This document shows, one piece after another, positions 15,101-59,702 of a stretch of DNA of 64,000 nt. Numbering within the stretch: position 1 is the stretch's first letter; every line of letters begins with the position of its first letter. The DNA is taken from NCBI GenBank assembly GCA_002007465.1, contig LNAC01000276.1:4360002-4424001 (forward strand). The letters are read 5' to 3'. Under the pieces are notes generated by a model, which saw nothing but the letters and a program-made list of their open reading frames with translations, searched no databases and had not been told where the DNA came from. Both the position numbers and the translations under genes were made by a program. This stretch comes from Ailurus styani (Eukaryota > Chordata > Mammalia > Carnivora > Ailuridae).

Positions 15101-18100
15101 CCGACCCTCACGGCGCCCATCAACAACCGGAGAGACCGAGGCTGGGAGACTGGCCGACGCGTGGTGGTACCGGGGGTCTGACCCCAGGCTCCGAGGCCCG
15201 CGACTCCAGTCTCGCCCTGTGCTCCCTTCCTGGAGGGGGTGGCGGGGGGCTCCAAAGACAGCCAAATGGCCAACACGCACCCGAGAAGATGCTCGGCAGC
15301 ACTGATGGTCAGGGAAAGGCCAATCCAAACCACGAGAGAACGCCTCCCAGCCCCCAGCATGGCGGCCGCGCGAGGTGGGCAACCTCAAGCGCTGGCGAGG
15401 ACGTGGGGCACACGGCTGGAGCGCGCTGTCCCCGACCCCAGTGCCGTCACCCTGGAGGGCCGTCTGGGGCCCCTCCCCACGTGTACTCCAGAGCGACCGC
15501 CCCATGCCCGTCTCCTGACACACAGCCAAGAGAAATGACGACCTGTGTTCACACGAGCACTACGTCTACCGTCCACGGCAAGGCTGGACTCACAACAGTC
15601 CAAGGTGGACACAACCCCAGTGTCCACGGATGAACGGGTCAACGTAACGTGTCCCTCCACGCACGGGCGCATCTCTCAGCCACGAAGAGGAGCGAGATAC
15701 CGACATGCGCTCCCCGGGGATGGACCCTGAGCCCACGACGCTCAGACACAGAAGGCCACGTGCGGCGTGAGTCCACGTGTGTGACACGTCTAGAACAGGC
15801 TCCTCCACGGACGGGAAGGAAGCGTGTAGTTGTCAGGAACCAGGGCCTGGGGATGAGGTGGTTTTCTGGGGTGATGGAATGTTCTAGAATCAGAAAACTG
15901 ATGGCCACACAATGCTGTGACTACACTAAAAAACCAGTGAATTTGTACGCTTTCTTTTTTTTTTTTTAAAGATTTTATTTATTTATTTCACAGCGGGAGA
16001 GAGATCACAAGGAGGCAGAGGCAGGCAGAGAGGGGGGGGAAGCAGGCTCCCCACTGAGCAGAGAGCCTGATGCGGGCCTTGATCCCAGGACCCTGAGATC
16101 ATGACCTGAGCCGAAAGCAGAGGCTTTAACCCACTGAGCCACCCAGGCGCCCGAATTTGGACGCTTTCAAAGGGAATTTTCTCATACGAGAATTACACGC
16201 AATTTTGAAAAATGCTCCCCATCAGGAGAGAAAACCCTAGGAACTGGGTGCTGGTGAAGAGTTCTCACGTCAGGACCAGGCAGTCAGGGGAGGGGAGGAA
16301 GCGGGGAGCACAGAGCCTCCCACACAGGCATGTCCACGCTCTTTTTCCCACCCCTCCTTCCACCCACACCAGCAGGGTCATAGTCCTGGGGGGAGAAGGG
16401 AGCAGAGGCCGGGCTGAGCCTCATTCCTGCCACTCTGACTGCAGCCCGGGGGTAGGGCCCTGGCCACCCCCCACCCGCCGTCTCCCCAGCCCGCGGTGGC
16501 CTGGTTTATGTGAGCCATGCTGGGCTTTTTGAACTCGGATGAGTGGGTGGCGCCTGGACGTGGGAACCTGGCTGGTCCTCTGCCTGCTTCTGAAAAAAGG
16601 GGACAGAAGTGGGGTCCTACAGTTGCACGTGCACAACTCGCCCCCTGCCCCCCATTTAGGCCACAGGTAGAAGGTGCACCTGTTGAACGAAAGAGTTGCA
16701 GACTCTGCCTTCTGGGAGCCTCAAGTCCAGTGCAGAGACAAGCCTTGCCCTCCCTCCAGCAGCCCCTGGGATCAGCAAGAGTGGTTCTCATCCCCGGCCC
16801 GTCTGAAGCAGACCTGGAAATTGTTGCCCTGGCCCAAGGTGGGCACGTGGCCTGGTGTGAGCGCTGAGGGATGACGAGGTCAGCCTGGGGAGCGCCGGCC
16901 TTCCCAAGTCAAACACTCAGTGTAACGAGAGAGGCTCAGCATCGTTCTTCCCCTGCCTACTTGGAGGGTTGGCGATCCCGGGAAGAGCATGCAGGATGCA
17001 GGAAAGCCATGGGGACCCTGTTCCAGGGCCATCGGCCAGCTGCTTTCCAACTGCTCGTTAAGGAAGAGAAAGAAGCCCCCATAGCAAACTCTACTACACC
17101 TCTGAATGCAGCTCATGCCTCTCCTCTGTGCCTGCACGGTTCCGTGCCAACCTCGTGGAGGCACCTGTCACAGTGGGGAGGTGTCACCACCAAACTGGGA
17201 ACCCCTTGGAGGCAGGGGCTGTGGGGACCCCTGCCCTGCACTCAGGACATTTTTGTCAAAAGAATGAAATGTTAAGAGGGGCAAGAGCAGAGCATGACCC
17301 AACCGTGGGGGTGGGGGTGGGGGCCAGGAAGGTTCCCTCGAGGCTGCACCTCAGAGAGGGGCCGGAGTCAGTCAAGAAGGGGGTGGGGAGAAGCTGCAGA
17401 GGCCACAGCAGAGTCCTCTCCAGAGTCTGGATAGTCCATACGGCTACAGCTGGAATGGGAGGGGGGACAGTGGAGGCAACAGGTGACCTGGAGAGATGGG
17501 CCTTGGCCACATGCTGGGGGCAGAGGTGTCCACTGGGAGGTCTAGGCTCAGAAAGAACAAGTCCAGGGGGCCTGGGTGGCTCAGCTGGTTGGGCATCTCT
17601 GCCTTCAGCGATCCCAGGGTCCTGGGCTCGAGTCCCACGTCAGGCTCTCTGCTCACCGGGAGCCTGCTTCTCCCTCTCCCTGTTTGTACACCCTCTCTGT
17701 CAAATAAATAAATAAATAAATCTTTAAAAAAACATAATAAAACAAAAACCCTTAAAAAAAATAAAGAACGAACGAACAAGCCCAGATATCTGTGTCCCAG
17801 GAAGCAAATACCCTCTGACTTGCAGGATGCCACTATGGGGGGCAGGGTTTGAACCTGGCAAATAAGGGAGCAAAAAAAGAAAAAAACCCACAGGGGCACC
17901 TGGGTGGCTCAGTGGGTTAAAGCCTCTGCCTTTGGCTCAGGTCATGATCTCAGGGTCCTGGGATAGAACCCTGCATCGGGCTCTCTGCTCAGCAGGGAGC
18001 CTGCTTCCCCCTCTCTCTGTGCCTGACTCTCTGCCTACTTGTGATCTCTCTCTCTGTGTCAAATAAATAAATAAAATCTTTAAAAAAAGAAAGAAAGAAA

Positions 18101-31308: not shown

Positions 31309-34300
31309 TTAGAACTAATAAATTAGCAAAGTTATGGGATACAAAATCAACACACACAAAAAAAATCACTGCATTTCCATACACTAATGATGAACAAAGT
31401 GAAAACAAATTAAGAAAACAAATCTACTTACAATAGTACCAAAAAGAATAAAATACTTAGGAATTAACCAAGGAGGTAAAAGAATTGTACAATAAAAACC
31501 ACGAAACACTGATGAAAGAAATTAAAGAGCACATAAATGGAAAGACATCATGTTCATGGACTGGAAAACTGCATGTTGTTAAAATTTCAAGACTGATGAG
31601 GGACAGAAGCAGAAAAATGTTCAACTTTAGTCCGGAAGGCTGACCTACAGTAGTTCCGATAAGGATCAGATATGTGCTGATTGCTACATTCTTAAAGGGT
31701 CTCATGACTGCCTATACATCTCACCGATAGTTACCGTGGAACTGAGTGATAAGCGCCAGAGAAATCTTGCAAAAGTATTTTTACGAGTAGAAATTTGAAG
31801 AAAAAAACCATTTATGATCTAATACTCCTTGCGCGTCCCCTCCCCCTTGAGCACTAAGCATATAACCAACAGCTTCATACAGAAGTGTAGCTCTTTCTGC
31901 CCACGGGTCCTGTCCCTGTGCTATTTACATAAACTTACTAAGCTGCACCATACAACGTTTCAAGAAGTCTTTCTTGGCCACTGCACTCGATGACATCGCA
32001 AGAGTACAGCTGTGATGGAAAACAGCACGGTGGTTCCTCAAAATATTAAAAATAGATTGACCATATGTTCCAGTAATTGCACTTCTGGATATATACCCCG
32101 AAGAAGTGAAAGCAGGATCTCAAAGAGATATTTCTATACTCACGTTCTCAACAGCAGTGTTCACAGTAGCTAAAACATGGAAGGAACCCAAGCGTCTGTA
32201 GATAGATACATGGAAAAGCCAAATGTAGGGGGTACATCCGCACAACAGAATACTATTCAGCTTCAAAAGGGAAAAGGCCCTGTCACACATGACAACAGGG
32301 ATGAGCCCTGATGTGCAGTAAAGAGCACCAACAAAGGACCAGTATCACACGCGTCCATGTGTGTGAGCTACCTACAGTAGGCAAGTTCACAGAGACAGAA
32401 AGTAGAACACAGGTTACCAAGGGCAGGGGGAGGAGAGATTATTACTTCAGAGGTTTTACTTGGGATGATCAAAAAGCTCTGGAAATAGTAGTGATGGCTG
32501 CACAGTACTGCACATCTATGCAAAAGTGCTGAATGGTACATTTAAAAATGACTAAAACGACAAATACTATGTCACAGACACACACATACCCACACGCCAC
32601 AAACCAGAAAAGGCAAAATCAGTAAGTGGGCTGTATCATAATCAAGAACTTCGGTTCTCTGCAAGACACCGCTGAGAGACTGAGGAGACAAGCCATCAAA
32701 TGAACATATCATAAAGGACTGACATCCAGAAATAAAAAGAAATCTCACAAATTCAGTAAGAAAGCAGACAACTCAACTTTTAGAAAATGGCAGACACTTT
32801 GAACAGACACCTCCTTAGACAGAATGACAAATAAGCATATGAAAACATGCTCAATGCCTTTAGTCATTAGGGAAAAGTCCAGAACCAGATGGTTTCACTG
32901 GTAAACTCTACCAAACATTCAAAGAATTAACACCAATTTTACTCAAACTCTTCCGAAAACAGAAGAGGAGGGAATACTTCCTAACATATTCTATGAAGCC
33001 AGCATTACTTCGAAACCAAAGACAGGCAAAGATACCACAAGAAAACAGCAGACCAATAGACCCTTTGAATAAAAAATTCTCAAAGAAATACAAGCATCCA
33101 ATATCACACGTAAAAGATTATACACCCGAAACTAATGATGTACTATAAGTTGGCTAATTGAATTTAAATAAAAAAAGATTACATACATAATTTATCTATC
33201 CCAGGATGCAAGTGTGGTTCAACGTGAGAAAACTAATCAAAACGATCAAAACATAATATGCCACATTAATAAAACAAAGGGAAAAAACCCACATGATTAT
33301 CTCAACGGAGGCAGAAATAGTGTTTGAAAAAATGTAAGGCCCTTTCCTGATGTAAACACTCAGAAAGCTAGGAATAGAAGGGGGTTTCTTGAACCTGGAA
33401 AGGGCATTTATGAAAAACCCACCACAAACACCACACTCAATGGCAAAACGCTGAAAACTCAGCCTTAAGCTTTAAAACTTAACTTCAGGGACAAGATAAG
33501 GATGGGCCACTTTCACCATTACTATTCAACACTGTGATGGAAGTCCCAGCCAGAGCAATGAGGCAAGAGGAAGGGAAAGAAGAGAGGTGAGCATCCAAAC
33601 TGGAAAGGAAGAAGTACTATTATCTCCACCTGCTGATGGTATCTTACATGTAGAAAATCCCAAAGAAACCACAAAAAAATAAACAGATTCGGTACAGTTG
33701 CAGGGTATAAGATCAGCACAAAAAAATCAATTGCGTTTCTGTACACCATCAGTGAACAATCAAAAAAAAATTAGGAAAATAATTCCACTTATAACAGCAT
33801 CCAAAAGAATAAAATACCTAGAAATAAATTTAAGCAAGAAGGTAAAAGACTTGTATACTGAAAAGTACAAAAGATTGCTGAAAGAAATTAAAGAAAACCT
33901 AATTAAATGGAAAGACATCCCATGTTCCTGGACTGGAAGATTTAATAATGTTAAAAGAGTAATGTTTCCCAGGTGATTTACCAATTCAATGCAATGCCTA
34001 TCAAAATTCTAGTGGTCTTTTTGCAAAAATGGAAAGTCAAACATTAGACTCATATGAAATCGCAGAGGCCCCAAAGAAGCAAAACCACATTAAAAAATAA
34101 AACCCCTCACAAAATTGGAGGGCTGTCATTTCCTAATTTCAAAACTTCCTGTAAAATTACGATCGGGGGGCGCCTGGGTGGCTCAGTCAGCTAAGTGTCT
34201 GCCTTCGGCTCAGGTCGTGATCTCAGGTCCTGGGATTGAGCCCCGCGTCAGGCTCTCTGCTCAGCAGGGAGCCTGCTTCTCCCTAGTCCCTCTGCCTGCC

Positions 34301-37300
34301 TCTCCCCCTGCTTGTGCACTCTCTTTCTCTCTCTCAAATGAATAAAATCTTTTTTTTTCTTTTTTAAGATTTTATTTATTTATTTTATTTATTTATTTCA
34401 CAGAGGGAGAGAGATCACAAGGAGGCAGAGAGGCAGGCAGAGAGAGAGAGGGGGAAGCAGGCTCCCCACTGAGCAGGGAGCCCGATGCGGGCCTCGATCC
34501 CAGGACCCNAGAGAGAGGAGGAAGCAGGCTCCCTGCCGAGCAGAGAGCCCGATGTGGGCCTCGATCCCAGGACCCTGAGATCATGACCTGAGCCGAAGGC
34601 AGAGGCTTTAAACCGCTGAGCCACCCAGGCGCCCTGGATAAAATCTTTTAAAAAAAAATTTTTTTTACAGCAATCAGGAGCACCTGGGTGGCTCAGTTGG
34701 TTAAGCCTTGGGCTCAGGTCGTGATTCTGGGGTCCTGGGATCGAGCCCTGCATTGGGCTCCCTGCTCAGCGGGGAGTCTGCTTCTCCCTCTTCCTCTGAT
34801 GCCCCCCAGCTTGTGTGTGCACCCGCGCTCTCTCTCCCAAATAAATCTTTAAAAAATTTACAACAATCAAAATTAGCAATGAAATAGAATTGAGAGTCCA
34901 GAAATAAACCCAAACATCTGTGGCCATCTGATTGTCAACAAGGGTGCTAAGACAACTCAACGGGGAGAGATTAGTCTCTTAAAAATGGTGCTGAGACAAA
35001 TGAACAATCACATGCAAAAGAATAAACTGGACCCTACCTCGTGGCATATATCGAAATTAACTCAAAACGGATCAACTATCTAAATATAAGATTTGTAAAA
35101 CTATGAAAGTAAAGTAAACAGAGGAATAAACCTTCACAACTTCAGATCTGGGAATGGAGTCTGAGATTTTATACTCTAAGTGTGAACAACAAACAAAAAT
35201 AGATTAACTGAACTTTACAAAAATCAAAAACTTTTACACATTAAAGGACGTTATCAGAATAAGATAAAACAATCTATGAGATGGGAGAAAATATTTTTCA
35301 AGTCACATATCTGGTAAGGGTTTACTATCCAGAATACAGGAAGAACTCTTACAACTCAACAACAAAAAGACAAACAATTGGATTAAAAAAAAGACAAAGG
35401 GGGCACCTGGGTGGCTCAGTGGGTTAAGCCTCTGCCTTCAGCTCAGGTCATGATCTCAGGGTCCTGGGAACGAGCCCCACATCGGGCTCTCTGCTCGGCA
35501 GGGAGCCTGCTTCCCCCTCTCCCTCTGCCTGCCTCCCTGCCTACTGGTGACCTGTCAAATAAATAAATAAAATCTTTAAAAAACAAAAAACAATGGACAA
35601 AGGATGTATATAGCCGTTTCTCCAAATAGGACACACAAATGGCCAACAGACACATGAGATATTCAATATCATCGATCTTTAAGGAAATGCAAATCAATGC
35701 CTCGATGAAATACCATTTCATACCCGCTAGAAAGGCTACAATAAGAAAAAATTTTGTAATGGAAAATAACAAGCCTTGAGGAGTCTTCACACATTCTGGT
35801 GGGAACACAAAAAGCTGCAGCCGGGGGAGGTTTGGCAGGTACCTCACAAAGGTTACAGACACAATCTCCACATGGCCCGGCAATCCCCCCGGGTGCACGC
35901 CCGAGAGACACCGAAACCGGAACGTGCACACGTACGAGGGTGTCCGCGGCAGCTCGACGCGGGGGAGCAAGTGAGTGGAAGCGGCCCGAACGTCCGCCCA
36001 CCGACGACCGAGTAAACAAACGACGCCCGAGCTGACGTTCGCCGTCCCCGCGTTCCGCATCTGGAACTGGCCGCCCGCTAGGATGTATTCGGAAGCCGAC
36101 TGTCAACACCGCGCCGTCCCGGGCGCACGGAGGGCTGACAGCGCGGCTGACGCAGAGCACGGGGAAGCCCGGCCTGCCTGTCTCCGCTCTTGGGGGCGAA
36201 CAAGTGGTAGATGCAGGGCCATGGTTTCCACATTCTCGTGCTCTTTGCTGGTGACTGTATGGTCCGAAAGGGCCCCAAGCAAAACGCTGACGGGCTGTCG
36301 AGGGCCTAAACCCAGGGGGGCCGAGAGGTGCCTTACAAAGAAAACACATCTGTCAGATGAGTGGGGCTCCGGCAGGTGGCTGTGAGCTCAGGGCTCATGA
36401 AGCCACGGTGCACGTTAGATAAGGTGTCTGTGGACGGAAACACCCAGAACGCATGACTGCGGACCCACCAGTCGACGGACAAGTGACCGGAGGCTCCCAG
36501 GGGCCCAGGCCTGCGCTCCGTCCCGGCCACAGTGGCTCAGGCCTCACGGATTCAGTGTCGCCGGGGATGTCACAGAACCTCATTCCTGAGAAGGGGAACG
36601 TCACTCGGCCCCAAAAAGCCACGGAGCACGGACACGGCTGCGCACACGGAGGACCCCGCAACCCCGGCACCGAGCACGAGAGGCCAGACGCAGGAGGACA
36701 CGGATCGTACCAGTCCTCACATGAGATGTCCCAAACCGGCGGACCCACAGGAGGGAGAGCAGACTGGACGTGACCGGAACGTGGGGCTGGGGACAACGGG
36801 GAGACGGGGAGGGCTGACTTGACAATGGTTCACTGCATGGGAATTTCACCTCACTCAAAAAAGATTTTTTGGACAATCGTGGTACCAGAGAAAGACACTT
36901 GGGCTTTGTTCCTGGCTCCTGGCACAGATCTCCAAAACCCTTGGAAAGGCCTCAGTGACAGGGGCATCTTTGGTTCTCATGAGACAACACGTGGCGGGGC
37001 CCTTGACGGGGGGGTTGGGGTGGGGGAGCTGGTGGCCAGAAAAGACCAAGCCCTGATGAGCAGCTTGGTCATCCAGCCCCACCTCCCAACCTGCAGAGAC
37101 GGGTGAGGGGCTAAAGGCTGCGACAGTCACCCACTGCCAATGATTTGAATCAATCGTGCCTACGTATTCAACCTCCATAAAAACCCAAAACAATGGGGTC
37201 TGGAGAACCAGGCTGCTGAACACAGGAGGTGCTAGGGGAGCGGCATGCCCCCGGGAGGGCCTGGGAGCTCCAGACCCCCACCCCACACCCCTCTTCCGGC

Positions 37301-40300
37301 CGCCTGGCCCTGAAGTGCATCCCTCATAAAAAACTAGCAACAGTAAGGAGCATGTTTACCAGAGTTTTCTGAGCGGTTCTAGCGCAGGGGGTCGTGGGAA
37401 CTCAGGCATTAGAAGCCAGAGCCTGCAACTGGCACTGGCGGTGGGGCCAGTCCTTTGGGGCAGAGCCCTGCACCTGCCGGGCCTGCACTAGTTCCGAGCA
37501 GACAGTGGCAGGACCGAAGCGAACTGCAGGACACCCGGCCAGTCTGCAGAGTCAGAGCTGGACACGTGTTCTTAGACAGGACGCCTCTCGTTTGCCGTCA
37601 GAAGTGGTCTCAGTAAAGATGCTCAACAATCCACACATTCTACTTCTGAAGTAGGACAAGGCTCCCCGCCGCACACTGCAGTTGTTCTCCCTGGGGGAAA
37701 GGAGGGCTTTATCTGTCAAGCAGAATGTGGCCTCCCGTAAGGACCGCCAAACAACACGGAAGCAGAATTCCTTCACTTCACAGATGCCGCCCTATTCAGG
37801 GTCAAGAGTGGCTAAAAAGCCCTCAGGCTGACACAAGAAAACGTCCTTTGCCCGAGAAAGCGCCTGTTTCTGCTGTGGGCAAGGACCCTCCCCGCTCACC
37901 AGAAAAGCCAAATGCCAACTTCCCTCATCTCCCAACGCTGCCCTCCTCCGGCCCCCAGAGGCCGTTTTCTTTTTTTTAATGTCTTTTTTTTTTTTTTAAG
38001 ATTTTATTTATTCATTTGACAGAGGGAGAGAGATCACAAGCAGGCAGAGAGAGAGGAGGAAGCAGGCTCCCCGCCGAGCAGAGAGCCCGATGCGGGGCTC
38101 GATCCCAGGACCCTGAGATCATGACCTGAGCCGAAAGCAGAGGCTTTAACCCACTGAGCCACCCAGGCGCCCCGGAGGCCGCTTTCTCTGCTCAGCTTCC
38201 TGATGCAGACGAATCAGCAGGACAGACGGCCGGCTCAACGGACCAGCACATGTGCTCCCACCAAATGCTCCGTCTGGGCGGTGCTGGGTCTGTCCCATCT
38301 CGGAACCTTCCGAGCAGCCCCGACGAGCGGATGGAGAGACCAAGGCCCAGGGAAGTAAGCCGGCTACTGCCTGCCCCCTTCGCTCCCTACCGCAGAGCTC
38401 AACTTACCTCCCCTACCGCTGCCGGGGAACCGAGGGCAACCCCTGCCTGCGCCGGGGCCACAGAGCCACCCGCAGAGGCCTACCACACCTGCAGGAGCCC
38501 CTCGGGCGGTGACCTGGTGTGGACTTCCCCACAGGTGTCTGATCACGAGACCATCGAAAGCAGGGACCCACATTCAGACAGCTGCAGGGCGCCAGGCCTA
38601 GAACTGTCCCTGTCACCCCGATAGAAGCAACCACCAGGATCTGTGACCCGCGGACGCCCTGGGTCAGGCCTGTCTTGGCTACTTAGGCAACAGGTGTACA
38701 CACGCACTCAGAGGCTCTGCTGGCTAAATCCCAGCTCTGCCCATGACTGCACGGCCTTCACTCAGTGACTGGGTGACCAGGAGCTCCTTCTTCCACGGAC
38801 CGGGGAGGTCACCTTCCTCTAGGCCTCACCTGCACACTCAGCAGGTCCCTGCTTAGCAGAGCACCTGGCCCATGCACACACCCCACAGGACCTGCGACTG
38901 GACTTGTGGCCCAAGCCCCTCCCCAGGGTTCCTCGCTTCCTGGGTTTTCCCAGTTCAGGGCCACCTTCTAGAGCTCTGGGGGCAAAACCACCTCCAGGAA
39001 CAGAGGAGGCCAGCGTCTGTCCTGAGCAGGAACGTGCTGCAGTTGTGAGAACCGGCTCACAGCGGCACTCCTGCCCCAGGCACATGGGCCTCGGCAGGAA
39101 TTGGTCAGACAAGTCTATGCCTGGGAACACGACCTTCCTTTTCTTTTCTTTTTTTTAACAGAAAGAAACAAAAACCGCATACCAACAGATTTCAAATGAA
39201 AATACGAACCGAAATTTTAAAAAACCTACAATACCTAAACTTAAATTAAAGAATCATAGTGTAAGTAAATTCTACCTCAAGAAACCAGACTTGAACAAAA
39301 ACTTTTAACTTGAACCAGAAGCCACGGTGGATCACGGGACACACAGGGGCAGTGAGCTGCACACGTGCGCCCTCTAAAGGGTCATCTGAGGAAGTGGCGG
39401 CGTGTGGGGCCTGGCAGAGGAACTGGAATCAGAGAGGGTCAAGGAGTCCAGGATCCCGCCCCGCCCTTGCAAGACACACACACACACCCCTGCTCACTCC
39501 CAATAAGAAAGCCCAAGGATCCTGAAAGAGCACACAGGGATTCAGGACACCCTCAGAGGGGTCCTCTCTGCTTCCTCGATGCCCAGTGCAGGTGAGGGGG
39601 CTGTGCCCAGGAGGGACATGTCTTGTGGCCAAAGGGTCACCCGGAATTCCCTCTGTTCCCCACCAGGGACAGGACAGAGGGGTGGGACCTTGGGAACTCA
39701 GTATAGGAGTATAGGAAGTCCAGATGCAAGGCTCAGGGGAGCATTACAAGACGTGGCAGACAGATGCCGTGACCCACGGTGGAGACCCTTCCTGGGGCTC
39801 CTACAGGGATGGGCAAGTTGCACCTGCTCGATCTGGGTTTTGTAACATGGGGGCTTCTGCATGTGGCGGGCCTAGCTCCCCATCCCCCCTGCACAAGGCT
39901 GAGAAGGGGGCGCTGAACAAACAGCGCCAACCATGTCCTGCCCAACATCCTTCAACACTCAGCTGGCCCCAAAAAGCCACCCGCCGAGCCAGGGGACTGC
40001 AAAGCCAGGCGCTTGACTCTCCCTCCCAGGGCTGCCCTCAGATCCGTGGTCTGAGAATCTATGAACGCAGGGTAACAACTCAGCCTGGAGGGACACTGTA
40101 GCGTGCAGTTCTTACACGGGCTGAAACATAACAAGGGAGAGGAGAGGCTCTTCTCTGGGACAAGGGTTCTTAATCCCTAAAATGGTCTGCGGCCGTTCCG
40201 AGGTGAGCTTCGCTTCACGCAATCCCAAGCAGCTAGCGCGCGTGCCACAAGGGAGACAACAATGGGCCATGTCGGCTCGGTGCCAACCCGCCACGCAAGC

Positions 40301-43300
40301 TGGAGGAGGAGTCACCCTCTCCAGCCTCGGAGTCCCCAGTGGTTGCGAGGGGCTTGGAGACATGGGGGCCTGGCTCCAGCTTCAAGACCAGAAAAAAATG
40401 CTTCTGCGGTAAACAGTAAGTGTCCATCGATGGATGAATGGATCAAGAAAGTGTGGCCAATGTGTGTACGTATGTCTACACACACAGTGGAATACAGTTT
40501 GGGCTTGGGATTTGGGGCTTGGGAAATTTCAATGGGCTTGGGATTTTGAAGAAGAAAACCCTTTGTATAAGAACCTAGACAGATTATGCTAAGTGAAATA
40601 AGCCAGACAGAGAAAGACAAATACTACATAGTATCACTTACATGTGGAACCCAAAAAAATGAGAAAATCATAGAAACAGGGAGTAGAAAGTAGCTATCAG
40701 GGGTTGGGGGTGGGAGAAGTGGGAGGGGGGCTGGTAAAAGGTGCTAATGTTCAGTCATAAGGTGAACAAGGCCTGAGGACCTGACATGTAATGTGGGGAC
40801 TATAGCTGATTAACACTATTGTTAACTGAAATTTGCTAAGAGAGTAGAACTTAAATGTTCCCCCCCACAAAAAAACGGGGTGTGTAAGGTGATGGATGTG
40901 TTAGTGAACTCGATGGGGAAAATCCTCTTACAAATGTGTGCATCTGCCAAATCACCACGTGGTGCACTTTAAATGTCCTATACTTTTGTCAGTTACACTT
41001 CGATGGAGCTGAAAAAAAAAAGGTAAAAAATGTTTCTGTGTCCCGCAGTAATTGGCAAGCCCAAGCGAGCAGTCCTTGCGGGCGCCCATGGGCTCCCGCA
41101 GCTCTCGTGAGGACAGAGAGCCCTTGGTGCCTGCTGGTATGTGGAAGAGCCAGGGCTAACCGAGGGACTCATTAGGCAAGCGGTGGCATCCACCGGCCTC
41201 CCATGGAGATCTCCTTCCTGAGAGAAGGCAGAGCTGCCTGCTGCCAAGGTCAGCCGGGCTTGGAGAAAAGCACACTTCTGAGCCAGGAAAGCTCACCGTG
41301 GCCTCTTGGTGGTGCCCGTGAGAGGCAGAGGCAGGCTGCCAGGAAGGCTTTTTTTATCTGAATCACTGGGCTTTAAAAAAAAAAAAAGCTATGGTCTGGA
41401 TGTGTCTTCCCCAAATTCCTCTGTGGAGGCCTAACGCCCAGAGGTGATGGGAGGAGGAGGTGGGATCTCAGAAGGTGATTAGGTCCTGGGGGTGGAGCTC
41501 TCACGAGTGGGAAGCACGTTTTTATAAGAGACCCCACACGTGGCTGCCTCTCCCTCCACATGAGGACATAGCAAGAAGTCTGGGACCCGGGACAGGGCCC
41601 TCCCCGACCCACTGGTCACCCTGATCATGCACTTTCAGCCAATAAATCTCTCTTGTTTATAAGCCCCCCAGTCCGTGGTATCTAGTCACAACAGCCCAGA
41701 TGGAATAAAATAATACACGTAAATATATACAGTCGCTGTGTTTAAAAACACACATGGAAGAAAATAAAACAAAAACTGCTTATAACCCTATCCCCCAGAT
41801 TACCCTTTAACGTGTTTGATGGACCTCTTTTTCTCTATGAATAATATACCTAAATTTGCTTTTTTCACTCAAAAAATTAACCTCCCCGCCCACCCTACCA
41901 GGTCATCAAAGATTCCATGTAGACGCACCGTAAACACGCCGAACCACTCACCTACCGCTGGACGTTTATGTAACTTCCGCATCTTGGCCACAGCTCCCGG
42001 CCGGTGACTAACCCCCTAAGACCAACCATGGAATGTGGCCCTGTCATGGCACATCACTGCTAACTCAGGGCCCACACACACCTGCAGGGCAACTGAACGG
42101 GGATGTGGCCTGGCTGCTCCCCGAGAAGGCCACGTCCATGGGTTCCCCCACCTGCCGTCCCAGCAGGAGACAGACGCCCCACTCGGAGCACCCTGACTCG
42201 GATGTCCGCTCCAAGGGACTCCAACGCTCCGTCCTGCACGCAGCCCCGGCTCCACCGCCTCCCTTGTGAACGCTGTGTCCTTCTCGCTGCTACTCCGGGG
42301 GTCCTACCTTGTTTTTGAAGTACACCTCGATGGGCATGATGAAGCCAGCGTAACCCGACTCCTCCACTTTGTAAGGGGGCTCCTTGCACACTAAAAAGAA
42401 AGGGAAAATGCATCATCAGCTTCCCGCACACTCAAAGGCCCAGGCGCCAGCAGCAGCAAGCTCACAGCCCCTCTGCGCCTCTTCTCGGGGCTCAGCCGAC
42501 CTCACGGGACGGCAGCTTTGCAGGAGGCCTGCTGCCCCCGGGAGTGTCGAATCCCACGGAATTCAAAGCATCACGCGGCACCAGAGTAGAACGGGAGAAA
42601 GGTGACCCCGGCACGGAAGGAGGGCGGCAGAGGGACGCGGGAAGGGACGTGAGATGAGCTAGGACAGAGTGGCCACTGCCAGCCATGGGCCGCACGAGCT
42701 CAACCGCATCAGGGCAGTGAGATGCCAGACCCTGTGGGGCCCCAGCGTCCCCGGCAGCGAGGACCGTGCCCACCGCCAGCCGCTGCTCACTCAAACGCGC
42801 TCCCGAGGCCCGGCTGGGCGCCAGTGCCACAGACGCGGGGAGATGGGAGATGGTGACGGCGGGTCTTTGCTGGGAGTCCCCCGGATTCCATTTTAGCCCC
42901 TCACAAAGGCATTCCCGAGTGACTGAAGAGAGACTCGTTAACCCCAGAGTTGGGGGGGGGTAAAAAGTTGAAACCAAAAAGAACAGCCAGGTACAAGTAA
43001 CATGACCTCCAGCAACCACACCCTCCAGAACGAACCTCAATGCTTTGACACGCATGCTATCGTGAATACCGTTCTCCTGCTTTTAAGAAAGATCAGCTCC
43101 CCTGGTCCTCCACTCCGCCCTCCCCAGAGGCAATCTCTAGTGGGAGCCGGGAAAACACCTGCCCGTCCTGAAAAACCATTATGCCCACATCTGCACCAGT
43201 CAGGTAATTCTTAAGTGGGCCAGAATCCGCTGGAAAACAGTGCCCGGAACATAATGAAAAAGGTTTTGTTTTGTTTTGTTTTAATTTGAATGGTGTAAGT

Positions 43301-46300: not shown

Positions 46301-49300
46301 AGAAGGAAGATAAAGAGAACCAGAATGAAATATCCGGGGGCGGGGGAGGGGATTCCCCCAAATAAAGGAAATGATCAAGAAGATGTGAAAAAAGTGAAGC
46401 TCTCTGGATGCTGAGGAACAACACAATGGGAAAAAAAGGGGAGAAGCAAATTATTCAAAGTTACACCCAAACATGAGGCAAAGTAAACAGTGTGAAATTT
46501 TAACCAAGAATGATAAAAAGGACCCATCTGACCTTGACACGACCTTGAACGTTCTCCTCTGGGAGGCCCCGGAGCTCAAGGGGTGAACGAAATCCTGGCA
46601 ACATGACCAGCCCAACAGGGTACAGAATCAACAAAACAATCGGTTTCCAGCTTCTAGAATTAACCCCTAATGTGGGAACAGAAGTGCAGCCCCCAAAAGG
46701 AGGGGTAGAGGGTTCAAGGAAAGACAAGGGTGCTCAGGTCCTTCTCTTCCCAGGTGGAAAGTCAGAAAGCACAGACGAAGGTTGACAGGGCTGGAGAGCC
46801 CATTCACTCACTCAATAAATACTTAGTAAGCACCTACTGTATCCTTTCAGCACTAAGGTCACAGCAGCAAACTGCACACAGCAAGTCATAAATCTCTCCC
46901 TCGGGGGAGGAGGAAAGACGGACGAGATAAGTACCATGTATGATTTGTTAAGATGGGGCTAAGGAGGGAAAGAAACAAAAACAAAAACAAGAAACACAGA
47001 AAAAGGCTGCGGAGCACACGGCACGTCGGTGGCTGAGCACAGAAACGGCGAGTGAGACCCGGCAGCCAGGGGTCTTCCTCCGAGGATGACGGGAGCCTCT
47101 GCAGAGGACCCAGAAGGCCAGCAGGTCTGCCTCCATGTTCAAAGTCACAAAGACAACCACTGAAAACAAACCACTTACCTACAGTACGTTAGAGGAGATG
47201 CTGGAGGAAGGGCCGGAGTTTAGGATAGAGCCAGTAAGTTAAAAACATTGTTTTAATTTGGAAAATCATGAGGTAGCAAATTTGCTTCTACTACTTTAAG
47301 AGATTTGGGAAGGAGAAATCCACAAAGGGCTCGAGTGTCCTGAGGCAGCATGGCCAGTGTGAGACAGAAAGGAAAATTCCCACCCCGAACACTTCTGTTG
47401 GCTTTGTCAGGGGTAGGTATTTGACTGAAAAAACACTTTTTAAGTATACCATGTGTAATTTCAGAGCACCCTGTGTGAAAATCGCTCTTTCTTTAACCCG
47501 ATCCACGTCTCGCTGACAACTGGCAAGATGAGTTCGGTCAACACCGCCACATTCACGACATGCGACGTTCGGGGGAGCTGCTCCCCGGGCTTGGGCGTCC
47601 AGGCTCACAGACAGACCAGTGCGCTTCAGCTACTGATCACACCTCTGCCCCCAAAACGATGTGTTCAGAGAGTGCGCCCCACTCGTCGCCCCACTTCCTA
47701 GGCACCTGGAACTCAGCAGGTGCCGCCTGCACGTGACCACCGCGGGCTACAGGGCCTCTCTGAACCTCAGTGCACACGTCTGCCTCCAGGGCTTCCGGGG
47801 GGCCCCACGTGGCAAGGCTGCCACAAGTGCATGGGAACCACAGACTGCCATTCGTGTCACTTCGGGTGCCCGGGGGACAGCTTAAAGGTGGAGGAAACAT
47901 CCTGCTGGGGCCACCCCAGACGGAGGGGAGGGCGACGGTGAAGAACCGGAGAGGAAGCTGCCAAGGAGGCGCGGAGGGCCCAGCCCCGGAGGGCAGCAGG
48001 GACAGCAAGCAGGCCGGCCCGAGTGCAGGGGCGTGTGGGTGCCAGTCACAAGCAGGGGCACCAGCCCAGCCCCCGGGCCAGCGTGCAGACCCTGCTTGGC
48101 AGCACAGGCCGCGCAGTGGGCCCTCTTGAGCCTGTCCCCCATCGGTCAGGGCGCTGTGGGGAGACTGCACAGGGACCCCACATGGGAAAAGAGCTTAGCA
48201 GGAAGTTCCAGGTAAGCAGCGTGGACTATGCTTCCTGGAGGTGCTTGACAGACATCGGCTGTCGTGGTTAGCAGAGCTGCTCCCCTCCAGCGCGCTCAGG
48301 AAGGAAGGAAGGAAAAGGAGACCAGGTGAAGACCCAGGAAAGGAGAAATGAGGGAAAGGAATAGCTGACAGTCGCTGGAAGAAACCAGAAGAAAAAGAAA
48401 TGGCTACCACAGCGTTAGGAACCTCCAGCTGCCTTCCCTTGTAAGCCAGGACCTTCTGCATGTGTAAGAGACGTCATTTCCCCACTAGACCACAAGCCGC
48501 TCTCTGGCGCTGGCCCCCCCCCCAGGCCCCGGCCCCCAGGGGATCCCACGCCACGCTCCTGCTTCAGCCTAAGGCCATCCACGCTTGCTCACGCGCAGCC
48601 CTGCGGTGCCCAGCGCTGGGGTGGAGGGCTCAGCAGCGGCTCTCCCTGCTCTGAAGTACTTCTTCAGCAAAGAAGTCCTTCTGTCCTTATCAACACACCC
48701 GTTCAAGAAATTCTTTACTGGAGGGCGCCTGGGTGGCTCAGTGGGTTAAAGCCGCTGCCTTCGGCTCAGGTCATGATCCCAGGGTCCTGGGATCGAGGCC
48801 CGCATCGGGCTCTCTGCTCAGCGGGGAGCCTGCTTCCTCCTCTCTCCNGTGCCCAGCGCTGGGGTGGAGGGCTCAGCAGCGGCTCTCCCTGCTCTGAAGT
48901 ACTTCTTCAGCAAAGAAGTCCTTCTGTCCTTATCAACACACAAGTTCAAGAAATTCTTTACTGGACCCCTGGGACGTGCCGCACTTCACCCGGGGGACTC
49001 CACAGATGTNAAAATAAAAATAAAAAAAAAAAAAGAAATTCTTTACTGGACCCCTGGGACGTGCCGCACTTCACCCGGGGGACTCCACAGATGTGGCACC
49101 GGCCCCCACAGAGCTAAGGAGACGGTCACCAACTTCATCCCAAATTCCCCAGGGAGCGTTGTCTGAGCCCCGTAAGCCGGGTGAGTTCCCAGCTCTCTGC
49201 CCTGTCACACCACCGGGCCATAGGTAGTCGAGATCTGGGCGGCGTCCGTGAATGAGGAGGCCCTTCCTTCTCAGCGAAGAGCAGGCCGGTGGGGGGAGCA

Positions 49301-49993
49301 GGGAAGGAAGATGCACAAAACAAGACGACGGTGAAATGAGAACCCTTTATGCTTTTTGGCCCAGATAGCACGAATTCTTAAAATGGCATCTCTCATCAAA
49401 TGTAGGCCCACTAAGCAATTTCCTGGTTACTCACCAGGTGGGAGTAACTCAGTCTTCCCACCCACTGGCCACTGGCTACGTGCTCTGGATGCTTCTCGGA
49501 GCCCAAGTCTAAACAATGACACAAGCCACAGTCACCACCTCCTTTGGGTTTTCCCTACAACGAACTCATCAGCTGAAGGAGAAGCAGAGAGGTAGGCGGA
49601 GGACCATTTTGTTTTAAGGTCAGAGGAGGGCCACATCCTGGCTGGGTACCTTCCCTCCAGCAAGGACAGGGGTGCAGGTCAGGAGCTCAGAGTGTGGGCC
49701 CCGCTGCTTCCGGGGAGAGGGAGGAAACAAGCCTGGCAAGGAGCGAAGACGCACGGGTTACGTCCCAACACTTGGTCCCTGCAGGGCTGCCCCGCCAGGT
49801 GGAGGCACTCACCGCGCTTGGGCTTGGGGAAGCTGTCATGCAGCCGGAAGACCACTTTCTCCACGAAGTGCTGGATTTCACATTGCTCGGGGCCACGGAC
49901 AAACACCATCCAATCGTGGGTGAACCCCTCCGTGGTGGGCTTCTTGCGCAGTTGGGCGCGGTGTCCCAGCTCTAACTTGACCTGGACAGTGCA
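269..49993 (-). CDS. MLLT1: MLLT1 (ENL) YEATS-domain chromatin reader, exons 2-8, partial at both ends
   Basis: ENL reads acylated histone H3 lysines in the nucleus and couples them to transcription elongation through the super elongation complex (AFF1/4, P-TEFb) and DOT1L. The CDS is join(complement) 49813-49993, 42308-42390, 14662-14805, 11022-11147, 6441-6995, 2256-2343, 269-377. Every junction has AG acceptor and GT donor, and the phases fit. Assuming the usual four-residue exon 1, the YEATS fold is residues about 5-138. It keeps F28, H56, S58, F59, S76, G77, Y78 and F81, the acyl-lysine pocket known in ENL. Residues about 183-367 form a long Lys/Ser/Pro-rich disordered part with basic nuclear-localisation-like runs. 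Residues 368-433 are Ser/Asp/Glu-rich. Start codon and C-terminal AHD (AF4/DOT1L-binding) are outside the readable sequence. The paralogue MLLT3 (AF9) is excluded: the disordered part lacks AF9's long poly-Ser tract and matches ENL. To R433 it is three residues shorter than human ENL as I remember it. Confidence 0.97.
378..2255 (-). other. MLLT1: MLLT1 intron 7
   Basis: This 1,878-nt GC-rich intron contains a 27-bp minisatellite at 632-739 and a reverse CTCF-like core at 1345-1361. I see no interspersed repeat. Long open frames on both strands follow from high GC and are not supported as genes. Confidence 0.85.
632..751 (+). repeat. 27-bp minisatellite in MLLT1 intron 7
   Basis: Four full units lie at 632-658, 659-685, 686-712 and 713-739, followed by a partial copy. 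The shared unit end is 'caggcctctggcc' or 'caggcctctgggc'. Units alternate between a 'ccctgcgc' type and a 'ctttgctcg' type, which gives a 54-bp higher-order period. Because 27 is a multiple of 3, the array creates repetitive open frames on both strands. Confidence 0.93.
2256..2343 (-). CDS. MLLT1: MLLT1 exon 7
   Basis: This 88-nt exon encodes SAQSSPSN, a Ser/Asp tract and FEPSQNHSQ, and ends one base into a Gly codon. The acceptor is cctgaag before TCTGCG and the donor is AAG/gtgtgtgg. The Ser run is coded by repeated TCC/AGC codons, so this is a place where slippage could change length. The product is a disordered acidic Ser-rich segment of ENL. Confidence 0.95.
3082..3098 (+). promoter_or_regulatory. 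CTCF-like motif, forward orientation
   Basis: The sequence GCCACCAGGGGGCAGTA matches the known CTCF core (CCACCAGGGGGCGC-type) at nearly every position. This is motif evidence only. Occupancy cannot be judged from sequence. Confidence 0.5.
6225..6310 (-). repeat. MIR SINE fragment
   Basis: 'ggggaaactgaggctta' followed by 'ttacacacagctcccaag' is the reverse complement of the MIR core (cctcagtttcc ... tgtgtgacc). It is an ancient mammalian tRNA-derived SINE, heavily decayed. Confidence 0.6.
6441..6995 (-). CDS. MLLT1: MLLT1 exon 6, disordered Lys/Ser/Pro-rich linker
   Basis: This 555-nt exon (185 codons, phase 0 at both ends) runs from [11 protein letters not shown] to DEASFKTE. It is the largest coding exon here. 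It encodes a highly charged disordered linker with [12 protein letters not shown], a run of seven prolines, and a basic KKPKK cluster suited to nuclear import. The acceptor is ggcatttcag and the donor GAG/gtgaggca. The proline run and the Ser run before [10 protein letters not shown] are shorter than in human ENL as I recall it, which accounts for the overall length difference. Several opposite-strand ORFs here are shadows of this biased composition. Confidence 0.97.
7495..7565 (-). repeat. L2/MIR3-like fragment
   Basis: 'gcatttattgagcacctgct' followed by 'aggcaccgtgc' matches the reverse complement of the L2/MIR3 3' end ('gcacagtgcctggca ... gtgctcaataaatg'). Confidence 0.5.
8839..8899 (+). 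repeat. 24-bp tandem repeat with palindromic unit
   Basis: Two copies of a 24-bp unit (8839-8862 and 8863-8886) are followed by a degraded third copy. Inside each unit gcacaggg-ac-ccctgtgc is an inverted repeat, so the array can form two tandem hairpins. Confidence 0.85.
11022..11147 (-). CDS. MLLT1: MLLT1 exon 5
   Basis: This 126-nt exon (42 codons, phase 0) encodes [20 protein letters not shown] through [12 protein letters not shown]. It follows the YEATS domain and begins the linker. The acceptor is tatcactag/GTG and the donor AAG/gttagtga. Confidence 0.96.
12077..12115 (+). repeat. (GA)n microsatellite
   Basis: A near-continuous GA dinucleotide run, purine-only on the plus strand, lies inside intron 4. 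Confidence 0.9.
13927..13970 (+). repeat. 12-bp GC-rich tandem repeat
   Basis: Three consecutive copies of gcctggcgggcY (13927-13938, 13939-13950, 13951-13962) are followed by a degraded fourth. Confidence 0.9.
14662..14805 (-). CDS. MLLT1: MLLT1 exon 4, end of YEATS domain
   Basis: This 144-nt exon (48 codons, phase 0) encodes [20 protein letters not shown], then [17 protein letters not shown] and RYKLLMAGG. These are the last beta strands and C-terminal helix of the YEATS domain. The acceptor is ttgttgaag/GAGGAG and the donor GGG/gtgagtgc. The intron upstream (intron 3) is the largest in the window. Confidence 0.97.
15470..15938 (+). repeat. L1 3'-end relic, GC-shifted
   Basis: The order of landmarks follows an L1 3'UTR: 'caaccccagtgtccac', 'ggatgaacgggtcaac', 'tctcagccacgaagagg', then a terminal 'ggaatgttctagaatcag' block. 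Many positions that are A/T in typical L1 3' ends are G/C here. Confidence 0.65.
15955..16152 (-). mobile_element. CAN-SINE, minus strand
   Basis: A T-rich tail (plus strand 'aaagattttatttattta') is followed by the reversed body and the tRNA-derived head ending 'gagccacccaggcgcc'. It is flanked by a 16-bp target-site duplication, gaatttgtacgctttc (15939-15954) and gaatttggacgctttc (16153-16168), with one mismatch. Confidence 0.96.
17567..17773 (+). mobile_element. CAN-SINE, plus strand
   Basis: The tRNA-like head 'cctgggtggctcagctgg' leads to a CT-rich body and an 'aaataaataaataaat' tail. The target-site duplication is gaacaagtccag (17555-17566) versus gaacaagcccag (17774-17785). Confidence 0.95.
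17893..18096 (+). mobile_element. CAN-SINE with mustelid-style body
   Basis: This full-length element runs from the 'cacctgggtggctcagtggg' head through 'ctacttgtgatctc' to 'aataaataaaatcttt'. The flanking A-rich duplication 'aaaaaacccac' appears before it (about 17879-17892) and after it (about 18097-18110). It lies 120 bp downstream of another CAN-SINE. Confidence 0.95.
19365..19490 (-). repeat. MIR-like fragment
   Basis: 'taagcactgaaca', 'cccacttcccagacgcagaa' and 'gagctgcctggtgccaca' follow the order of the reverse-complement MIR consensus (counterpart of 'ccccattttacagatgagga'). It is highly diverged and GC-shifted. Confidence 0.5.
20436..20482 (+). repeat. (GA)n microsatellite
   Basis: An imperfect GA run with interspersed gata and gatg units. 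Confidence 0.9.
21190..21320 (-). repeat. MIR SINE fragment
   Basis: 'aagaggaaactgaggtttgg' followed by 'catttgtcaaggcca' matches the reverse-complement MIR core. Confidence 0.6.
21401..21487 (+). repeat. 20-bp minisatellite
   Basis: Four exact-length 20-bp units (21401-21420, 21421-21440, 21441-21460, 21461-21480) plus a partial unit all start with the palindrome cccgggacgacag. Variants pair as types A-B-B-A (tggggca, cggggtg, cggggtg, tggggca). Because 20 is not a multiple of 3, the array is open in several frames, which explains the repetitive ORFs here. Confidence 0.94.
21980..22080 (+). repeat. MIR SINE fragment
   Basis: 'actcactgtgtgaccctgga' followed by 'tctctgagcctcagt' is the MIR core in plus orientation. 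Confidence 0.7.
24610..24890 (+). mobile_element. ERV1-type solo LTR relic
   Basis: The arrangement is that of a gamma-like retroviral LTR: a TATA-like 'cccataaaaacccc' near 24689, a pyrimidine-rich 'ggtcccctccctcctcggga' R-start region, 'cgctcaataactcttgcttt' carrying a polyadenylation-signal-like element, and a 'cctcttcattctttgaag' U5-like end. No internal gag-pol-env region is seen. Exact ends and family are uncertain. Confidence 0.6.
25085..25970 (+). repeat. L1 3'-end relic with telomere-like insert
   Basis: 'ggcactgctggtgggaatg', 'accatatgatgcagcaattc', 'tggaatgtacactttcaatg' and 'atgaattatctggcatgtga' occur in the order expected of an L1 ORF2 end and 3'UTR, plus strand. A G/T-rich tract at 25256-25285 interrupts it. 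Confidence 0.85.
26125..26560 (+). repeat. L1 3'UTR relic, GC-shifted
   Basis: 'ttcacaatcagccagagcc', 'accataaaaaggaatgagct' and 'gtggttccatttctagga' mirror the L1 3'UTR landmarks. Many CpGs are present. Confidence 0.75.
26695..26883 (+). mobile_element. CAN-SINE with perfect 13-bp TSD
   Basis: The head 'gcgcctggggggctcagtcg' is followed by the body and an (AAT)n-expanded tail. The perfect target-site duplication aaatgacctagtg lies at 26682-26694 and 26884-26896. Confidence 0.96.
27233..27547 (-). mobile_element. MER2/Tigger2-like DNA transposon relic
   Basis: The right end read on the minus strand (gttgaccctggagcggcacg, then ggtttgaactgtgtgggtcc) matches the known MER2/Tigger2 terminus. 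The left end (gatgacccttggccaac) is the decayed opposite inverted repeat. It is about 315 bp with no transposase and is non-autonomous. Confidence 0.7.
28020..28755 (+). repeat. Probable L1 3'-end relic
   Basis: The stretch ends with 'tctctgcaattcttctctg', 'ttatttcaaaattaaatg' and a poly-A, resembling the 3' terminus of older L1 families. The upstream part is only weakly recognisable. Confidence 0.45.
28756..29570. other. Unassigned AT-rich stretch in intron 3
   Basis: I recognise no coding exon or repeat family in this AT-rich sequence. It may be anciently decayed transposon or unique intronic DNA. Confidence 0.4.
29575..30480 (+). repeat. L1 ORF2 end and 3'UTR, interrupted by a SINE
   Basis: 'ttacacaactcaacaacc', 'aaaatgggcaaaagactt', 'gctggtgggaacataaaatg' and 'ggtgaattttctgttctatg' are in the expected L1 order. 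The element at 29946-30057 is inserted inside it. Confidence 0.85.
29946..30057 (+). mobile_element. Short tRNA-derived carnivore SINE
   Basis: The head 'gcgcctggctggctcggctg' is followed by the B-box-like 'gagtttgagccccacg' and a GA-rich tail. The TSD aaagttaaaca lies at 29935-29945 and 30058-30068. It lacks the long CT-rich body of the other CAN-SINEs. Confidence 0.9.
30890..31600 (+). repeat. L1 ORF2 fragment (reverse transcriptase region)
   Basis: The plus-strand translation from 30898 contains [20 protein letters not shown] and [14 protein letters not shown], typical of L1 ORF2 just before the RT catalytic region. Frameshifts and a (CA)n insertion follow, so it is a dead relic. It stops at about 31600, where LTR-like DNA starts. 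Confidence 0.9.
31264..31308 (+). repeat. (CA)n microsatellite
   Basis: About 22 uninterrupted CA units inside the L1 relic. Such a length is normally highly variable. Confidence 0.97.
31590..31999 (+). mobile_element. Possible LTR relic
   Basis: 'agaagtgtagctctttctgc', 'ccacgggtcctgtccctgtg', 'ctaagctgcacc' and 'aagtctttcttggccactgc' resemble an ERV LTR R-U5 region as I remember it. It sits between two L1 pieces. Boundaries and family are unsure. Confidence 0.45.
32000..32870 (+). repeat. L1 3'UTR fragments
   Basis: 'aaaacagcacggtggttcct', 'ggatatataccccgaag' and 'cgtccatgtgtgtgagc' mark an L1 3' end. From about 32590 a second piece repeats the ORF2-end signals. Confidence 0.8.
33108..33180 (+). 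mobile_element. Tiny 5'-truncated carnivore L1 3' end
   Basis: 'ttatacacccgaaactaatg' followed by 'aattgaatttaaataaaa' is the terminal piece of a carnivore L1, only about 70 bp long. It is inserted in the older L1 with a likely aaaagatta duplication on both sides. Confidence 0.6.
34166..34350 (+). mobile_element. CAN-SINE, plus strand
   Basis: The head 'cgcctgggtggctcagtcag' leads through the body to a 'caaatgaataaaatctttt' tail. The next SINE is inserted in this tail. Confidence 0.95.
34354..34635 (-). mobile_element. CAN-SINE, minus strand, broken by a single N join
   Basis: The TSD gaataaaatctttt (34340-34353) versus ggataaaatctttt (34636-34649) shows insertion into the tail of the preceding SINE. 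At 34509 an isolated N splits the element. The bases after N re-enter about 55 bp earlier in the SINE with several differences, so two versions are spliced together. Confidence 0.93.
34677..34856 (+). mobile_element. CAN-SINE, plus strand
   Basis: The TSD is tttacagcaatca (34664-34676) versus tttacaacaatca (34857-34869). It is the third SINE in a 700-bp cluster. Confidence 0.95.
35401..35595 (+). mobile_element. CAN-SINE, plus strand
   Basis: The head 'cacctgggtggctcagtggg' leads through the body with 'gcctactggtgacctgtc' to 'aaataaataaataaaatctt'. A short gacaaagg duplication flanks it (35393-35400 and 35596-35603). It lies inside the long L1. Confidence 0.93.
36880..37620 (+). mobile_element. 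ERV-type LTR relic
   Basis: The sequence contains 'tgccaatgatttgaatcaat', 'cctccataaaaacccaaaac' (TATA-like), 'gagttttctgagcggttcta' and 'gggggtcgtgggaactc', the order of an old mammalian ERV LTR. There are no internal retroviral genes. I am confident of the LTR type but not of the family name. Confidence 0.6.
37971..38174 (-). mobile_element. CAN-SINE, minus strand
   Basis: A poly-T and 'aagattttatttattcattt' tail leads to the reversed body and 'gagccacccaggcgcc' head. The TSD is gaggccgttttct (37958-37970) versus gaggccgctttct (38175-38187). Confidence 0.96.
40405..41020 (+). repeat. L1 3'UTR relic
   Basis: 'gtccatcgatggatgaatgg', 'taagtgaaataagccagaca' and 'gatggatgtgttagtgaact' are in L1 3'UTR order. 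A short degenerate gggcttggga repeat (about 40498-40545) replaces expected L1 sequence. Confidence 0.85.
41389..41705 (+). mobile_element. MaLR (MLT1-like) solo LTR
   Basis: 'ctatggtctggatgtgtctt', 'gaaggtgattaggtcctggg', 'tataagagacccca', 'acatgaggacatagcaagaa', 'tgtttataagccccccagtc' and 'agcccagatgga' are the successive hallmarks of an MLT1-class LTR. It is complete in outline with no internal region. Confidence 0.85.
42308..42390 (-). CDS. MLLT1: MLLT1 exon 3, YEATS core
   Basis: This 83-nt exon encodes [20 protein letters not shown] then IEVYFKNK, with the first Val codon split across the junction with exon 2. It carries S76, G77, Y78 and F81 of the acyl-lysine-binding pocket. The acceptor is ttctttttag/TGTGC and the donor AAG/gtaggacc. 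It lies between intron 3 and intron 2. Confidence 0.97.
43942..44317. repeat. 187-bp direct duplication around a single N
   Basis: 43942-44128 and 44131-44317 align without gaps over 187 bases and differ at four transitions that I can see. The lone N at 44129 lies at the join, so this looks like an unmerged haplotype overlap and not a biological tandem repeat. Confidence 0.93.
45073..45307 (+). mobile_element. CAN-SINE with (GAAA)n/(GGAA)n tail
   Basis: The head 'gcacctaggtggctcaggtg' leads through the body to a poly-A expanded into gaaa and ggaa repeats (about 45265-45306). The perfect 10-bp TSD ggaataattt lies at 45063-45072 and 45308-45317. Confidence 0.95.
45590..45740 (-). repeat. L2/MIR-like fragment
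   Basis: 'aaagcacctactgggtacca', 'ggcaccgttcatgcacttta' and 'tttctattttacatacga' follow the reverse-complement L2/MIR 3' pattern. Confidence 0.6.
46795..46890 (-). repeat. L2-like fragment
   Basis: 'cattcactcactcaataaat' followed by 'taagcacctactgtatcc' resembles the reverse complement of the L2 3' end. Confidence 0.5.
48723..49032 (+). mobile_element. CAN-SINE, filled allele interrupted by its own empty-site allele
   Basis: The SINE head and body occupy 48723-48847 and the A-rich tail 49011-49032. The TSD aagaaattctttactgga is present at 48705-48722 and 49033-49050. Between single Ns at 48848 and 49010 lies 48849-49009, which repeats the left flank, one copy of the TSD and the right flank with no SINE. 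That block is the pre-insertion allele. Confidence 0.92.
49813..49993 (-). CDS. MLLT1: MLLT1 exon 2, N-terminal YEATS segment
   Basis: This 181-nt exon begins in phase 0 at Cys5 ([20 protein letters not shown]) and ends with one base of Val65. It carries F28, then H56, S58 and F59 in LHDSFPKP, which line the acyl-lysine channel in ENL. The acceptor is tttctccctccag/TGC and the donor CGCG/gtgagtgc. A phase-0 acceptor here fits the known MLLT1 design, in which exon 1 contributes only the first four codons. Confidence 0.97.
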
Positions 49994-59207: not shown

Positions 59208-59702
59208 NNNNNNNNNNNNNNNNNNNNNNNNNNNNNNNNNNNNNNNNNNNNNNNNNNNNNNNNNNNNNNNNNNNNNNNNNNNNNNNNNNNNNNNNNNNNN
59301 NNNNNNNNNNNNNNNNNNNNNNNNNNNNNNNNNNNNNNNNNNNNNNNNNNNNNNNNNNNNNNNNNNNNNNNNNNNNNNNNNNNNNNNNNNNNNNNNNNNN
59401 NNNNNNNNNNNNNNNNNNNNNNNNNNNNNNNNNNNNNNNNNNNNNNNNNNNNNNNNNNNNNNNNNNNNNNNNNNNNNNNNNNNNNNNNNNNNNNNNNNNN
59501 NNNNNNNNNNNNNNNNNNNNNNNNNNNNNNNNNNNNNNNNNNNNNNNNNNNNNNNNNNNNNNNNNNNNNNNNNNNNNNNNNNNNNNNNNNNNNNNNNNNN
59601 NNNNNNNNNNNNNNNNNNNNNNNNNNNNNNNNNNNNNNNNNNNNNNNNNNNNNNNNNNNNNNNNNNNNNNNNNNNNNNNNNNNNNNNNNNNNNNNNNNNN
59701 NN
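59208..59702. other. Assembly gap (495 N) hiding MLLT1 exon 1
   Basis: A run of N lies inside the CpG island and directly abuts a GC-rich degenerate minisatellite, a usual cause of read dropout. Its true length may differ from 495. Confidence 0.9.

Follow-up and report, generated by a model that had tools for sequence, protein, structure and literature searches.

The window analysed here, that is the whole stretch of 64,000 nucleotides, carries segments that encode parts of the YEATS domain of Protein ENL, the product of MLLT1. The segments are as follows:

49817 to 49993, minus strand: MLLT1 exon upstream of the intron under study, YEATS domain part 1 (PDB match)
42299 to 42391, minus strand: the MLLT1 exon that follows the intron (matched by tblastn; splice donor within the last codons)
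14659 to 14808: third part of the ENL YEATS domain

When 49817-49993 was searched in the PDB, the best match was Protein ENL (E = 5.4e-36, versus 2e-31 for the best AF-9 chain). The insertion described below is flanked by exons for successive stretches of the ENL YEATS domain and thus lies in an intron of MLLT1, which confirms the gene named in the earlier note. We take this intron to be intron 2, on the assumption that exon 1 carries only the first few codons. The product of 49817-49993 was 93.2% identical to the human ENL piece used as query; the differences at a few residues, such as an R in place of the W of VVFWLHD, may be either natural or assembly errors.

Inside this intron, the stretch 48606-49094 contains two parts of a site with a SINE (filled) and, between two single Ns, a block that resembles the same site without the SINE (empty):

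48606 to 48704, plus strand: left flank of the filled haplotype, with CC at 48699-48700 (97 of 99 bases identical to 48849-48947)
48705 to 48722, plus strand: first copy of the target-site duplication, AAGAAATTCTTTACTGGA (exact 18-mer)
48723 to 48847, plus strand: SINE head of 125 bases, presumably of CAN type, antisense to MLLT1 (14 other matches in the window)
48848, no strand: single-N join (one base; duplicated ends)
48849 to 49009, plus strand: empty-site block, 161 bases, interpreted as a contig from the second haplotype (159/161 versus the predicted pre-insertion site)
Parts of this block, plus strand: left flank 48849-48947, single target-site copy 48948-48965, right flank 48966-49009
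49010, no strand: single-N join (one base; duplicated ends)
49011 to 49032, plus strand: A-rich 3′ tail of the SINE in the filled haplotype, 22 bases
49033 to 49050, plus strand: second copy of the target-site duplication (exact 18-mer)
49051 to 49094, plus strand: right flank (44/44 identical to 48966-49009)

The coordinates and anatomy that had been proposed for this stretch (the 97/99 left flank, the 18-base target-site duplication, the head and the tail) all hold. Over the left flank and target-site copy, 48606-48722 and 48849-48965 match at 115 of 117 bases, and the two mismatches are neighbouring, with CC at 48699-48700 and AA at 48942-48943. Because these only two differences outside the SINE adjoin each other, they may represent a single event or an error. 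On the right, the 62 bases up to 49009, comprising target site and flank, are the same as the 62 bases up to 49094 (62/62). Bases 1-117 of the block match the left contig and bases 100-161 match the right contig. When the pre-insertion site was built from the filled halves alone, it had 161 bases and agreed with the block 48849-49009 at 159, the CC/AA pair being the sole difference; the earlier reading of the block between the Ns as the locus without its SINE is thus borne out.

The empty site has exactly one target-site copy and no scar. The filled site has the target-site duplication on both sides and a 3′ A-rich tail, with head and tail in separate contigs, and the halves outside the block are complementary, the head being accompanied by one target-site copy and the tail by the other. 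Within the window, the plus strand has three occurrences of the 18-mer AAGAAATTCTTTACTGGA (48705, 48948 and 49033) and the minus strand has none. The two As at the start of the 18-mer might instead be part of the poly-A tail, which gives a target-site duplication of 16-18 bases. An exact pattern over the empty junction gave 0 matches in viral_contigs, a search that is uninformative for a mammal.

The element is presumably a CAN-SINE. Its head, 48723-48847, had 14 other matches in the window at E ≤ 1e-5, the best at 95.97% over 124 bases, and differed from 38049-38172, 34511-34634 and 17894-18017 at 5, 7 and 10 positions, respectively. The complete sister copies carry a tRNA-derived head, a CT-rich middle and an AAATAAA..TCTTT(A)n tail, as in the carnivore consensus, while the copy at 48723 is without the middle, and the filled contig ends in this CT-rich part of the SINE. 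In the four complete sister SINEs of the window, the A-rich motif is reached after 155-167 bases and is over by 174-186; from these lengths, about 30-61 SINE bases between 48847 and 49011 are unassembled. The target site is preceded by GTTC and begins with AAGAAA, so that the nicked strand would read TTTCTT before the cut, which, as a variant of the L1 endonuclease site, should still be usable.

Since the empty allele has one clean target-site copy, it points to the ancestral state rather than to a deletion of the SINE; precise SINE loss is rare. That the insertion is recent is indicated mainly by the combination of an intact target-site duplication and an empty allele, and CpG content and diagnostic positions add little. 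The head 48723-48847 has 7 CpG and other copies have up to 8, and as an argument for youth this is weak at best, the count of retained sites favouring whichever copy defines the sites. Positions 32 and 57 of the head were considered as private to it and discarded, base 32 being present in one other copy and base 57 in six.

The window was compared with itself using BLASTN (word size 20, E up to 1e-10, plus strand). Four direct repeats of at least 50 bases within 1 kb were obtained, each spanning a single N, and two of them lie outside 48606-49094, namely 34443-34508/34510-34575 and 43942-44128/44131-44317. For the control, 1,500 random junctions were drawn, 76 were excluded for an N within 300 bases and 1,424 were tested, ends being scored as duplicated when a 60-base stretch at ≥90% identity was shared between the 300-base flanks. 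Duplicated ends were found at 4/4 single-N junctions of the window versus 0/1,424 random junctions; because two of the four belong to 48606-49094, the independent joins amount to 2/2. Both junctions of the present locus are on such joins, which supports the earlier proposal that both haplotypes were threaded into the assembly. The only multi-base gap in the window, 495 Ns, is at 59208-59702.

The join at 44129 is in the same MLLT1 intron. After its N, 187 bases are repeated with 4 scattered substitutions (97.9%), and from this overlap the join is probably between two unmerged haplotype contigs. The join at 34509 is inside a minus-strand SINE and has a 66-base overlap at 90.9% identity; its right-hand contig starts in the CT-rich SINE middle, where the filled contig stops at 48847, and the contig tip was likely built from another SINE copy. 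At this divergence, the overlap cannot safely be taken as allelic. Therefore single-N overlaps need not all be allelic, and contig ends within SINEs, including the last part of 48723-48847, need caution. The SINE with the 34509 join is part of a cluster at 34168-34791, where plus-strand heads (34168-34279 and 34680-34791) stand on either side of it. Overlap length was also considered as a k-mer effect, with the 62 bases on the right being k-1, and this was rejected: in the left overlap, the first difference comes after 93 bases and the SINE after 117, and a single k is also unfit for the 44129 overlap, whose differences are scattered. Since all single-N joins in the window sit on unmerged overlapping ends, scanning such joins would, if the pattern holds assembly-wide, list heterozygous insertions and false duplications without reads.

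We consider it very probable that the sequenced animal is heterozygous for the SINE in MLLT1 intron 2 and that a contig of the empty allele was set in the break of the filled allele, giving a haplotype false duplication; an ordinary type of variant would be combined with an ordinary type of assembly error. The SINE is predicted from this one assembly to be polymorphic. One chromosome would carry the CAN-type SINE and the other would be without it. As suggested by the anatomy and by established knowledge of L1-driven SINEs, the element would have entered the site by target-primed reverse transcription, with duplication of 16-18 bases. With the filled-allele contigs halted within the SINE, in its CT-rich middle, the join pattern suggests that the other allele formed a separate 161-base contig, which paired reads would have put between the halves, and that the scaffolder linked the overlapping ends with one N apiece. 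In the animal itself there would be no tandem duplication. The empty allele would be the block, and the corrected filled allele would be the stretch minus 48849-49009 plus the about 30-61 unseen SINE bases; the removal of 48849-49009 that had been proposed before is right, but it does not restore the locus, as those SINE bases are unassembled.

The divergence between the copies is 1.2% (2/161) here and 2.1% (4/187) at 44129, and usual mammalian heterozygosity is lower than 1.2-2.1%. These values are biased upward, because contigs remain unmerged only where haplotypes differ. The empty contig could also come from another individual or a close relative, through a pooled library, a hybrid or cross-sample contamination, so that the two states would differ between animals or species and not within one animal. 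With one assembly, 2/161 differences fit closely related genomes equally, and the 44129 overlap (187 bases, 4 substitutions) is rather divergent for a single animal. We regard this source as unlikely, since contamination would have to be frequent to give two separate joins with near-identical overlaps in the same intron, and heterozygosity was the main source of false duplication in the three-species study as described in PMC9516828. Still less probable is paralogy, in which a contig from a SINE-less second copy of the intron segment elsewhere in the genome was pulled in. The CC/AA pair could be a paralogous variant, but no additional copy of either flank or of the block turned up in the 64 kb window (E up to 1e-3), and an allele is the likelier source of a block placed exactly where the filled site is broken. 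A real tandem arrangement, with the locus duplicated and its empty copy inside the SINE, is the scaffold read literally and is very improbable, for both junctions are Ns, the SINE would have had to receive a piece of flank, target site and flank whose two ends both coincide with assembly breaks, and the other two close direct repeats of the window are likewise on single Ns; between 48000 and 49800, no array was reported by Tandem Repeats Finder.

The proposed heterozygosity for the SINE, with the two alleles left unmerged, agrees with what has been described for other assemblies. Duplicate haplotype contigs retain links to the same surroundings and may be placed adjacently, which creates an illusory duplication (Kelley and Salzberg 2010, PMC2864568). 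The present locus shares with the duplicated contained or overlapping contigs of PMC2864568 a haplotype contig beside the sequence with which it should have merged, and the 44129 join fits the overlapping-contig case there. A contained contig, as defined in PMC2864568, lies wholly within one contig, whereas the block 48849-49009, owing to the break of the filled allele within the SINE, is contained only in that allele taken as a whole; we therefore file the block under the wider class of haplotype false duplication only. Heterotype false duplication, as presented in PMC9516828, likewise consists of a pair of near-identical copies that share a scaffold and are separated by an assembly gap. The calls described in PMC9516828 use half read depth, haploid-specific k-mers and discordant read pairs, and the test described in PMC2864568 uses mate pairs, whereas here the assembly sequence alone was used.

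Among the matches listed from the open-licence literature on carnivore and mustelid SINE polymorphism, nothing concerned the present locus, and the open-licence literature gave no report of MLLT1 together with a SINE insertion. Polymorphic SINEs of other carnivores, as described for dog (PMC2830451) and felids (PMC4084570), likewise have presence and absence at one site together with a target-site duplication, and the present locus differs from them in being in MLLT1 and in a genome that, judging by its SINE sequence, is probably mustelid. Such polymorphism is common in the dog, for which 10,000 SINE sites that are bimorphic between boxer and poodle are cited in the essay PMC2830451. Polymorphic SINE loci with heterozygous animals are described for felids in PMC4084570, and for 14 introns of 21 species, chiefly mustelids, 106 cases of intra-individual allele heterozygotes are given in PMC3088541.

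The SINE is antisense to MLLT1, and some 0.77 kb separate the insertion from the upstream exon (49051 to 49817). By analogy with some dog SINEs, a young antisense SINE in MLLT1 intron 2 might change how MLLT1 (ENL) is spliced or expressed in carriers, an effect to which no observation in the window points and which we consider highly improbable here. The local gain is that a false duplication of 161 bases is identified and that the insertion offers a ready presence/absence marker.
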